Positions 36,239-60,800 of a DNA stretch of 64,000 nt are shown one piece after another (positions within the stretch are counted from its first letter, which is position 1; every line of letters starts with the position of its first letter). A program made the position numbers and the translations under genes. The DNA comes from Brachycybe producta (lineage: Eukaryota > Arthropoda > Diplopoda > Playtdesmida > Andrognathidae), in NCBI GenBank assembly GCA_036925085.1, contig JAUPFP010000005.1, forward strand, positions 9,244,498 to 9,308,497, given 5' to 3'. The notes below the pieces were generated by a model. That model was not told the DNA's origin. It made no database searches and worked only from the letters and a program-made list of their open reading frames with translations.

Positions 36239-39200
36239 ATGGCAACGGGAGGCACTTTGCAGGTATAAATGAATTTAAATGCCATTTTAGTGCATTTTTA
36301 AGGGTTAAATGTTGTTTTGTCGCCATAGAACGCCCCTTAAACCATTAGAATCGTAATATTTTCATCCGATTTCCATGTTTTCTTACGTCTAAATTAAAGA
36401 ATTCTTCTTAATGAAACAATTGATTTGCTACTACGAATTGTTATAAGAACGATATCTGTTTAAGTCGTAAGATAAGATGAGTTTTTCTGTCATATTCATG
36501 TGACCGGATCTGACGAATGGTTCTAAAACAGGGAAATACACTCATTTCTAAAATAAACGCCTTCATTCAGAGAAATATCTGATAAAATATTATTAATACT
36601 ACATTTACAAGTTTTAGAACGGTTTTTTTTAGATTAGTTAGCATGAGTTTTAAGACTTCGATGCAGGTTTGTGTGAAAAACGAGTATGAAAATAACATAA
36701 ATGTCATTGTTTCTTGTCCGTTAAAGATACCATTTTTTTACCGAAGAATGCCTTTATTTTGTTAGAAAGCGATTGATCTCGTCACGAAGGCGACGGAAGA
36801 AGACAAGAATAAGAACTTTGAAGAAGCGCTCAAGTTGTATGAACATGGAGTCGAATACTTTTTGCATTCGATAAAATGTGAGTTGTCGGTTTTTGATTCT
36901 GTCAGAAAATCGTGTTGTTCATTTTGGGTTGTTGTTTTTGTCTTTCGATCGAGGAACAGATGAAGCACAGAGTGAAAGAGCAAAGGAATCGATTCGAGCA
37001 AAGTGCGTTCAGTATTTGGATCGAGCCGAGAAGTTGAAAGCGTTTCTTAAGAAGGGAACGAACAAAAAACCGGTGAAAACTGGAGAAAATTCTTCTAAGT
37101 AAGGCAAAAGATTATTAAGAGGAATATTTGTGAGATAAATTATTGTACTTTTTATAATTTCTATGACATTTTGCAGTGAAAATAACTTATGAGAGTTTAA
37201 GATTTATTTGAAATTAGAAGAGAAAACAAAGATGCATAGATCATTTTTTTGATGAAATCTTTAAAAATGAACTTTTGATTCGCCTTTAAGATGGTTTACG
37301 AACAGCTGATGTTCGGTATCTTGATTATATTCTGTTTTTCAGAAGCAAATTTAAGAAAAACTTGTGTTTTTAGAAACTAGAAGAGTAGCTCAATCACTCA
37401 AGGGTAAAAAATGTCATCTCCTTAAATTTGGGTCATTTTCAAACTGACAAAGAGCATATTTTGAAAGATATCAACATGAAAATATGCTTACTCTAAAACA
37501 CATTTAAGTTTTTCTTCATTTTGCCCTTAAAGGCAGAATAATCAAGAGTTTGATAGAGGTTTACAGTTATAAACCCACCTGAAAGGAAGAAATTTAACGT
37601 TTTTTTTTAGAAACAAAAAATATAAAATCAGGTTTCTAACTCTTGCTAAAGTTTTAATTTGAAAAATATCATTGAAATTGTTTTCTGCACAAACATTAAC
37701 TTTTTTAGTTTCAAATAAATTTCGGTATTACTTTGTAAGTTGCTTCAGTGTTATATAAAAATGAAATAATCTCGTAAAACTTTTATTTTTTTACAGAAAG
37801 AACGGAGACAGCGGAAGTGACAGCGATTCAGACAATCCTGAAGTGAAGAAATTGCAATCAAAACTTGAAGGTATTTCTTTAATTATCTTCTTTACTTGCA
37901 AAATTGATATGAACCTATCTTTTTATGTTTTTAGGAGCAATATTGATCGAGAAGCCAAACGTTAAGTGGTCAGACGTTGCAGGTCTCGAAGGTGCGAAAG
38001 AAGCATTAAAGGAAGCCGTAATCTTACCTATCAAGTTTCCGCATCTTTTTACCGGCAAACGAACACCTTGGAAGGGAATCTTATTATATGGAGTAACCTA
38101 TTAAACTTCTTGTAACAAATCTCAACTGTTCAAAAATGTATTTTTATTGTTTGCTTGGATTTCAACAGCCACCGGGAACGGGAAAATCGTTTTTAGCAAA
38201 AGCCGTTGCAACAGAAGCAAACAATTCCACTTTCTTTTCCGTTTCTTCTTCAGATCTGATGTCGAAATGGTTAGGTGAAAGTGAAAAGTAAGTTTCTTCT
38301 ATTATTTTTGTAACGATGTGTTGAGTTTATAGATTAAGTTTCATATTTCAAATCTTAACAGATTAGTAAAGAACTTGTTTCAAATGGCGAGAGAACAGAA
38401 GCCGAGCATCATCTTCATTGACGAAATCGATTCTCTTTGTAGTTCTCGTTCCGATACGGAGTCGGAATCGGCTCGAAGAATCAAAACGGAGTTTTTGGTT
38501 CAGATGCAAGGTTCGAAATCGTACGAGGAGAAAACACTTTTCTGCTTTTTTTTTAATAAATCTAGTGTTCTTAGGTGTCGGAAACGATACCGAGGGAATT
38601 CTCGTGTTGGGAGCTACGAATATACCGTGGGTATTAGATGCAGCCATAAGAAGACGGTTTGAAAAGAGAATCTACATCCCATTGCCTGAAGAACACGCTA
38701 GGACGAGTATGTTTAAGCTTCACTTAGGAAGTACACCTCACTGTTTGAGCGAGGAAGATTTCAGGACCTTAGGAAAGAAGACAGAGGGGTAAGGAATTTC
38801 AAGGTTTTAACTTTTTTTAGCTTCGATTTGAATTCGAGTTTGTTTTTTAGTTATTCTGGTGCTGACATAAGTATTGTCGTAAGAGACGCACTGATGCAAC
38901 CTGTTCGTAAAGTACAGACGGCAACACACTTCAAAAAGGCATTTTATGAGACGAGACTTTTGCCTTTGAGGTGCTGGTGTAAGTCAGTATTAAGTATCTG
39001 CTTCGTTTTTGTAGGTACGAGGACCTTGTAGAAGTGATCCAAATGTAATCATCAACGATCTGTTGACTCCATGTTCGCCCGGTTCACCCGGAGCGATCGA
39101 AATGAACTGGATGGACGTTCCGAGTGACAAACTGCAGGAACCGATTGTCTCTATGGTTAGATTTGAGGCATGTTTGCTCGTAATCAACCCCTTTTAATTT

Positions 39201-57830: not shown

Positions 57831-60800
57831 TCAGTTGGCATCAGCGGCATAATGTGGTAGAAAGCGAGCGGAAGGATCGGTGACATTTGTCCATTTTGGC
57901 ATCCAAAAATATGGAATCCAATCCTGTTGTCCTGGAAAATGGTGTTCGAATTGTCTTCTGTAGTAAAGTTGTTCTTTTGTTTTAGGTGTATTTTTTTGAT
58001 ATTTGGTGGCAGCCAAATCTAACTCTTTATCAGAGACCTAAGAATACATATATAGAATTTTGTAAATTCTTATTTTTAAACTGTTATATAAAAGTTACAT
58101 GCCTGAGTTTCAGCAAAGTCGCTAAGAATAGAATACAAAGGTTTTCTGGTCGATGCAACACCATCACTGAAAGCTTCCTTATGACGCCACAGAATGTCAT
58201 TCGGCAGTAAGTCGGTGTCTTCGAAAGCCTGTCTTAAGAGATGCTTTTCGACACCGTCTTTCGGTTGACGAAGCTCTTTCGGAAGACTTAAGTAATAACT
58301 TGTAAATTGATGATCCAGAAAAGGAACTCGCATTTCAAGCCTGAATATATGATGACAAACAAACAAGTGTAATTTGTCTGTGACTGGATCACTTTTACAA
58401 AGAACATGTTTAATTTTCACAATACCCGTGCGCAGCTGTGGTACGATCACTTCTAAGAACATCGTACATGTACAAATCATTTAAGAGTCTTCTGCTTTCT
58501 TTATCACCAGCATCAGCAGTTGGAGCATCTCTGAAGTAGATATACCCCTGTGCCAATTCGTCCGATCCTTCGCCAGAAAAAATCACTGTTGTGTCAGTTG
58601 TTGTATTGATGTACTGACTGAGTAGAAACATACCTAGATATAAATGAATCAGTATTAAACAATTGCAGTTTTAAGTTCATAGAAGCAAAAAGAAAAGACT
58701 CACAAACAGACGCTCTAATAGTTGTGATGTCGTAACTTTCCAAATGATAAATCACTTTATCCAAAGCACTGGTGATTTGCTCTTCTGTTACAATGTACTC
58801 GTAATGTTCACTTCCGATGTACTTTGCAACCTTTTCAAGCAATTACAAGTGGATCAGTATAATTATTTTTAAATGTAATTGCCATGAATATTTGCAGAAT
58901 TGTTCTGTTTATTGGAAGTCACGTTATATTAACTGTAGTAATAAGAAGAATTAGTAGTTTTTTTTCTCGAGCTAAAGGTAATTGTAAAAGGATTGTTGTT
59001 TTAAAACAAAAGAATTTCCTCTTTTAGAGATGATCAAGGTATGGAGATGATAATAGTTTAAATTTTTGATAAAATAAATTCATACGGCTCATACAGACTT
59101 GGAAAGTCATGAAATATCATGAAAATTAGTGGAAATTAAATTCAGTCTTATAAAGTCAGTGAAAATAGTCATTTTTGCCACACACAAAAAATTGGAAAAC
59201 TCAGGGAATTTTTTTATAAAAGCGTAAAACAAATTTGTAATGCAACTGGCAAATTTAAAAATTTATGTTACATTTCATATACAGCACATTATATGGCAGT
59301 TTTGCATATTTAAGAGGTTATGCAAAATAAACGTATAGAATCTAATTTGCAATTATTCAGGGAAATGAACCAAAAAGGTTTATGAAAAGTCAGAGAAATA
59401 GATTGCCTGATTTGGGTGTGAACCATGTAAAACATTTACAATGGTTTTAAATATTAAACGTTAGTTTTCTACAGTTTTGACCTGACAACAAAAATAAAAT
59501 GATTGCGTTGTGTATTAATTTTTGCTGAAGAAACAGGGCTTTCATAGTAATAGACTAGTTAATGAATAAGTAACTATGTAACTAGGTGCATATACAAGTA
59601 ACTAGGTAATCATGTACTTTGTGATATATTTAATCATTACTTTTCGTGCTGCAATTATGTCTGGGCTGTCATCTAGGCCAATAGCAAATGTTTGCACCGG
59701 ATACGTAAGATTCTCTTCTTTTGATAACTTTAGTAGAACAGCAGCAGCCAAGCTGGAATCCAGGCCCCCTATTTAAAAGACATTTAGTATACAGTATAAA
59801 TGTTTTACTTTTGTAATAGATATTAAGGTAATTAATTATATATACCTGACAGAAGGCAACCAATTCGACGTTCAGCCATCAATCTTTTCTTAACAGCCGC
59901 AATGAAAAGTAGGCGTATGTTTTCATGTATGCCATTCTTGTTGAGTACTTTAAAAGTAATACATTCAAATTTAATTCTTAAACATAACCTGTTATTAATT
60001 CAAATTGGTCCATATATATTATAATTAAATTATATAATTTAAAATGTTGGCATTAGCACCTTCTTGAGGCACATAAAGTTGGTATCGTGGAGTTGCTCCA
60101 ATTTCATGAAATCGTTTGATTTCTACTAGCTTTACGTGACCATCTTTGCCAACGTTATAAGTCTCGTAATGTCCAGGTAGTACCGGCTCGATGTGAGTAT
60201 TTCCATTCAAGCCTTTAGCTAAATCAATTAATCCTGAAAGGAATAATAAGTAATTAAATATTACATAAACTGTATGTCACTGTATGTATATTTTACCTTT
60301 TGCTTCAGAGCACACAGCCATAAATCCATTCTTGTCCTGGAGTCGAAAGGCAGGGCGTACTCCGAATGTATCTCGAGCCACAAAAACTTGCATCGTGTCG
60401 GTGTCCAATAGACAGAATGCAAAAACACCTTCAAGGCGTGATGCACAAAAGTCGATTCCTCCTTTAGCATAAAGGTGAATAATTGCCTCGATGTCGCAGG
60501 TTGTTTCATAGTCAAAACTAAATTCTTGTTGCAACTTTTAATAAAATAAACAAGAAATATGTCTGAATGACAGTAAACATTTTCAGCTTATGGTCATTTT
60601 CTATAGGAACAGATACTGGGGTTCAGAATTAAAAGGTTCTCAGGATTTATTCACTTCCAATGGATTTTATGCATTATGAAATTTATGAGATTCATATATT
60701 TTTGACACTGCATCACTTAACACAGTTGCATCACTTACAATACATTTTGCAGATCTTGTACTTGGACCTAAATTGGATGTTTTTTTTTGGATGGGATTTA

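Follow-up and report, generated by a model that had tools for sequence, protein, structure and literature searches.

Four of the 52 introns that we rebuilt in a stretch of 64,000 nucleotides from the millipede Brachycybe producta (assembly GCA_036925085.1, contig JAUPFP010000005.1, C5:9244498-9308497; the whole stretch is called the window below) start with GC instead of GT: one in VPS4, two in a gene for phosphoglycerate kinase (PGK) and one in the gene for asparagine synthetase (ASNS). By every sequence test available these four are GC-AG introns. They are most likely ordinary U2-type GC-AG introns of near-usual frequency genome-wide that form a chance local cluster, rather than the mark of a new splicing habit. 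A preliminary description had counted about 52 introns in seven genes of the window, four of them with a GC donor, and our models reproduce this exactly, with 48 GT-AG and 4 GC-AG introns at identical coordinates (Table 1). Its further suggestion that the species favours GC donors found no support outside the window, where 2 of 139 introns (1.4%) are GC-AG.

Gene models were built by hand from the raw sequence and then tested by script; the count of 52 leaves out a gene cut by the right end of the window (about 63.5-64 kb). The six hand-built genes contain 48 introns (VPS4 10, PGK 11, NFS1 10, SH3BP5-like 7, Costars-domain 1, ASNS 9), 44 of the GT-AG and 4 of the GC-AG type, and the final models are free of frame breaks. 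The VPS4, PGK and ASNS proteins match solved relatives across almost their full length, and the alignment to VPS4B (2zam), PGK1 (2xe6) and ASNS (6gq3) is ungapped at all four GC junctions. Protein-to-genome spliced alignment, in which every non-GT donor carried an equal charge so that GC was not favoured over other dinucleotides, reached 38 of the 52 introns (VPS4 9, PGK 11, ASNS 9, NFS1 9), the other 14 being those of the hand models alone. Among the 38 it returned exactly the four GC donors and no further non-GT donor. Charging GC like GT again yielded the identical four, and when every non-GT donor cost no more than GT, a few junctions drifted to arbitrary dinucleotides while the four GC ones were unchanged.

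For each GC junction, in-phase and stop-free GT-AG pairs up to 60 nt away were scored in BLOSUM62 units against the GC solution. The best alternative scored lower by 37 units in VPS4, 47 in PGK intron 9 and 17 in ASNS. The earlier statement that three of the four junctions need GC is thus borne out; the exception is PGK intron 8, the weak case, in which moving to a GT 6 nt downstream would lengthen the protein by just two residues, at a cost of 9 units. The length of the GC introns (64-76 nt) lies at the short end and is unexceptional, as 14 of the 44 GT introns measure 76 nt or less. VPS4 intron 9 also contains a perfect GTAAGT (38979-39014), 36 nt before the acceptor, which is unused in the model; on hand reading, splicing there would change the frame and run into a stop.

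A family search of the assembly, which comprises 295,300,729 bases in 442 contigs, placed PGK genes at two sites, the window and contig C30 (L023:1004-4110). The C30 gene has 11 introns ordered as in the window gene, and precisely its introns 8 and 9 are GC-AG (GGATG/GCAAGTGC and AATGG/GCAAGTGA, a slash marking the exon-intron boundary here and in Table 1), with GCAAGT at both junctions homologous to those in the window. Of the two copies, that in the window has diverged further, its protein being 66.6% identical to human PGK1 compared with 75.1% for the C30 protein; identity between the two proteins is 77.8%, and the genes agree at 83 of 155 four-fold sites. Between the copies, the bodies of introns 8 and 9 showed no alignment beyond shuffled controls (intron 8: score -6, shuffled mean -0.7, maximum 15; intron 9: score 40, shuffled mean 29.6, maximum 50). 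As judged from these sequences, both PGK GC donors are old and were inherited from before the gene duplication. Being common to both copies, they are shared by descent and are no base-calling errors, and they constitute one inherited pair rather than two items of evidence on a habit of the species. A literature search for a paper on GC donors in PGK found none.

Normal U1 small nuclear RNA (U1 snRNA) is thought to tolerate GC donors through good pairing at the remaining positions. A search with RF00003, in which 42 of 3437 first-look candidates were scored, gave at least 14 U1 copies over the cut-off, on contigs C1, C37 and C63 (L009-L022); ten lie on C1, eight of these at 19.34-19.98 Mb. The 5' start ATACTTACCTGG was found in 12 of the 14 listed copies, one copy departs from it in the first base, and another (L022), with a low score, has clearly diverged. 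The base facing donor position 2 is an A in all 14. A variant U1 able to pair with C at this position was thus absent among the 14 listed copies, at the stated depth of scoring.

At the eight other donor positions the four GC donors match U1 5, 6, 6 and 7 times, while matches number 3-6 among the 44 GT donors from the six hand-built genes; a matrix built from those 44 places the GC donors at the 50th to 98th percentile. By hand count, the two GC donors found outside the window (in IGF2BP and MCM2, see below) match U1 at 5 and 6 of 8 positions. None of the four GC donors of the window (GCATTTTA, GCAAGTGT, GCAAGTTA, GCATGTAA) shows the U12-type donor motif, in which TATCCTT follows the first base. 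The fit to U1 suits ordinary U2-type GC-AG introns. In the mechanism that we propose, canonical U1 snRNA would recognise the GC donors although intron position 2 is mismatched, the remaining positions of each donor would pair with U1 at least as well as that of typical GT introns here, and the genome-wide frequency of GC-AG introns would lie near the usual 1-2%.

Outside the window, GC donors were counted among 139 introns of 11 genes. These were recognisable genes, found by their exons and therefore not a random sample, in the 200 kb adjoining the window (MMUT 17 introns, POLR1B 23, ABCF2 9, PRPF40 14, RNF19 9, IGF2BP 14, CYCS 1), together with four MCM genes on other contigs (MCM7 15, MCM4 13, MCM3 13, MCM2 11; 4 of about 11 MCM places). 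They were aligned to human reference sequences, and counts were taken after hand reading of most of the doubtful junctions. The alignment left out further genes in the 200 kb, among them one for an adenylate cyclase, one of TRIM-NHL type and one of bHLH type, and the second PGK gene (11 introns, 2 GC) was excluded because the window gene had led to it. The GC-AG share in this sample (95% interval 0.17-5.1%) is near the animal mean of 0.983% (PMC7072748, Table 1).

Of the two GC-AG introns outside the window, that in MCM2 is the less certain. In IGF2BP the best GT alternative is 26 units worse; the intron is stop-free and its length is a multiple of three, so that frame alone is compatible with retention. 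The MCM2 intron lies in a poorly conserved stretch with the phase-0 candidates GCCACC, GCACGT (both GC) and GAAGGA (GA), and with no phase-0 GT that spares the conserved residues. GCACGT was chosen as the best match to U1; if this is wrong, the outside count becomes 1/139.

Several other calls were rejected on the way to this count. A CT donor in POLR1B, CA and AT donors in RNF19 and a CG donor in MCM3 became GT-AG once the junction was placed by frame in hand reading, and the TA donor given for MCM2 by the standard alignment was replaced by the hand-placed GC. A 33-nt intron in PRPF40 is really a longer GT-AG intron with a different acceptor. EBAG9 (four alignment introns, poor conservation) was dropped before the count, its TA call (GC when GC was cheap) lying inside a continuous open frame. 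An extra N-terminal GC call in MMUT, seen solely with GC charged like GT, was also dropped. Two POLR1B junctions with weak flanks were counted as GT without hand reading. GA or GG donors were not returned by the standard alignment for any gene aligned, inside or outside the window, and in the window genes none appeared even when they were as cheap as GT. In the neighbouring genes that last setting gave 13 GA/GG calls (4 GA and 7 GG cleared the flank filter, 1 of each did not) and one extra GC call, in ABCF2, which failed the filter; the 13 were not read individually, and most split an existing intron or sit in poorly conserved stretches.

Table 1. GC-AG introns and genes of the window, and the two GC-AG introns found outside it
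Feature	Position	Strand	Structure	Remarks
VPS4 intron 9 of 10	38939..39014	+	GC-AG, 76 nt, phase 0	AAAAG/GCATTT...GTAG
PGK intron 8 of 11	41243..41312	-	GC-AG, 70 nt, phase 0	GGATG/GCAAGT...ACAG
PGK intron 9 of 11	41102..41165	-	GC-AG, 64 nt, phase 2	AATGG/GCAAGT...TTAG
ASNS intron 9 of 9 (last)	58038..58102	-	GC-AG, 65 nt, phase 0	CTCAG/GCATGT...TTAG
IGF2BP GC-AG intron	L032:4061-4144 (window-plus-neighbour 148061-148144)		GC-AG, 84 nt	GGAAG/GCTAGG
MCM2 GC-AG intron	L047:1552-1619	-	GC-AG	CCGAG/GCACGT; placed by reading frame, poorly conserved stretch
VPS4 coding region	36239..39331	+	11 exons, 10 introns (9 GT-AG, 1 GC-AG)	
PGK, divergent copy	40476..43451	-	12 exons, 11 introns (9 GT-AG, 2 GC-AG)	
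NFS1 cysteine desulfurase	44113..47917	+	11 exons, 10 introns, GT-AG throughout	Pfam Aminotran_5
SH3BP5-like gene	49166..51467	+	8 exons, 7 introns, GT-AG throughout	hand model; PF05276
Small membrane protein gene	52637..55300	-	4 introns, GT-AG throughout	ends approximate
Costars-domain gene	56504..57092	+	2 coding exons, 1 GT-AG intron	hand model; PF14705
ASNS	57831..61212	-	10 exons, 9 introns (8 GT-AG, 1 GC-AG)	

The window was said to hold several times the usual 1% of GC donors. Its 4/52 does exceed 0.983% (PMC7072748), with a probability of 0.0017 of four or more for one window named beforehand; the four are not independent events, as the PGK pair was inherited. Counting that pair once (3/51) raises the probability to 0.014, and for the best of 100 such windows it is about 0.16. 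The excess is therefore real but modest once the selection of the window is allowed for: the window looks rich in GC donors because two of the four are old inherited PGK donors and because the choice fell on a window with a chance excess. A species-wide share of 7.7% is unlikely. We infer that the four GC sites are used in splicing and that the rest of the genome has the same rate as the sampled genes.

Several points weigh against the reading as ordinary introns in a chance cluster. Fisher's test of 4/52 in the window against 2/139 outside gives P = 0.048, with which a true regional or species-wide excess may be compatible. Over all counted introns, 6 of 191 (3.1%) exceed 0.983% with P = 0.012, in a sum that includes the window which prompted the question and to which the omitted second PGK gene would add 2/11. 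The MCM2 donor was missed by the alignment and placed by hand; it could be wrong, and since it escaped the alignment a few more GC donors could be hidden outside the window. Moreover, human and mouse GC-AG donors are weaker than GT donors overall (PMC7242645), and the better fit to U1 seen here is that of a small sample of four donors. An ordinary GC-AG share with a local excess is the fair reading of these data, beside which a mild species-wide rise is also possible.

Such a rise, to a genome-wide share of about 3-5% through relaxed donor recognition as in potato cyst nematodes, would accommodate the 4/52 and 6/191 as well as the looseness of the GT donors, of which 20/44 have G at +5 and 24/44 have A at +3, and Globodera rostochiensis shows that 3.46% can be reached in animals (PMC4901422). 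Two or fewer GC donors among the 139 outside introns, however, have a probability of 0.0012 at 7.7% and of 0.14 at 3.46%, compared with 0.84 at 0.983%; U1 is canonical at the relevant base in the 14 listed copies, and half of the window's GC donors are the inherited pair of one gene. We regard a moderately raised share as unlikely. Less probable still is that some of the four were misread, with a nearby GT really used or the C being a sequencing or assembly error. The GT of PGK intron 8 that costs 9 units and the unused GTAAGT of VPS4 intron 9 speak for this. It is opposed by the best stop-free GT alternatives at the remaining three junctions, which fall short by 17-47 units, by the GCAAGT at both homologous junctions of the second PGK gene, which excludes independent errors there, and by six hand-built models without a frame break.

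A third possibility is that selection maintains the GC donors, since a weak donor close to the 3' end would permit regulated or slowed splicing. All six GC introns counted (four in the window, IGF2BP and MCM2; the second PGK gene uncounted) lie at a relative rank of 0.73-1.0, for which the probability with six independent random draws is 0.0014, a pattern found after the fact; both PGK donors were kept in both copies even though the intron bodies are unalignable, and GC introns of Globodera are likewise rarer toward the 5' end (PMC4901422). Yet the pattern came to light only once the introns had been counted, the PGK donors are not two independent cases, and first introns are undersampled since the references often lack the N-terminus. 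In humans the bias runs the opposite way, GC-AG introns being enriched among first introns (PMC7242645). We hold selection of this kind to be improbable, and give marginally less credit to its narrower form, in which GC donors would be selected in 3' introns of housekeeping genes and the weaker donor would regulate or delay the last splicing steps. The concentration of GC introns in the last third of genes is a lead only.

Compared with known systems, the introns described here resemble animal U2-type GC-AG introns in having a GC donor, an AG acceptor, a short length, a place in conserved genes and a fair to good match to U1 besides position 2. No difference from these has been established; only the window's 4/52 exceeds the mean of about 1% (PMC7072748). 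Shares reported in other papers include 556 of 113,879 introns in Ciona (PMC2760879) and about 0.8% in human coding genes, where GC-AG introns are often conserved (PMC7242645). As in Heteroderidae (Globodera, PMC4901422), GC donors occur in ordinary genes, are fewer toward the 5' end and are conserved between related genes, whereas the share outside the window is 2/139 and the donors are not uniformly near AAGGCAAGT. In the copepod Eurytemora affinis GA or GG serves as the donor of about 12% of the introns in ten genes (PMC5714493). There, as here, non-GT donors were noticed during hand gene modelling, but in B. producta the standard alignment returned neither GA nor GG donors. The retention of GC at the same intron across an old divergence, seen in the two PGK genes, parallels that of orthologous GC-AG introns in vertebrates (PMC7242645), with the difference that the vertebrate case concerns different species and ours paralogues within one genome.

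The remainder of the window is of uneven composition. Positions 1-35000, about 35 kb rich in microsatellites in which no gene was recognised by eye, adjoin the gene-dense half. A dispersed motif, TTTTAGAAACTAGAAGGGTA, occurs at 11 places in the window within 3 mismatches (0.01 expected), including positions 527, 7742, 10861, 33882, 34021, 37368, 47449 and 63271, and is also found inside VPS4 intron 3 and NFS1 intron 10; it is possibly part of a small mobile element. By eye, about 11440-12010 on the minus strand resembles part of an open frame for a LINE-type reverse transcriptase, and about 12160-12960 is a long degenerate CCCGGTTTATCC/GGGTTTTTCCC repeat array. The small membrane protein gene, which we take to be VOPP1/WBP1-like, encodes a product without a match in a Pfam search.

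Altogether, the share of GC-AG introns in B. producta is probably ordinary. Had the species a true preference for GC donors, many of its genes would be broken up by gene predictors that admit GT only, and its splicing machinery would be worth study. The practical consequence is small: GC donors have to be permitted when VPS4, both PGK copies, ASNS, IGF2BP and probably MCM2 are modelled in this genome. It is mildly interesting that the two PGK GC donors outlasted a gene duplication after which the bodies of the same introns can no longer be aligned.

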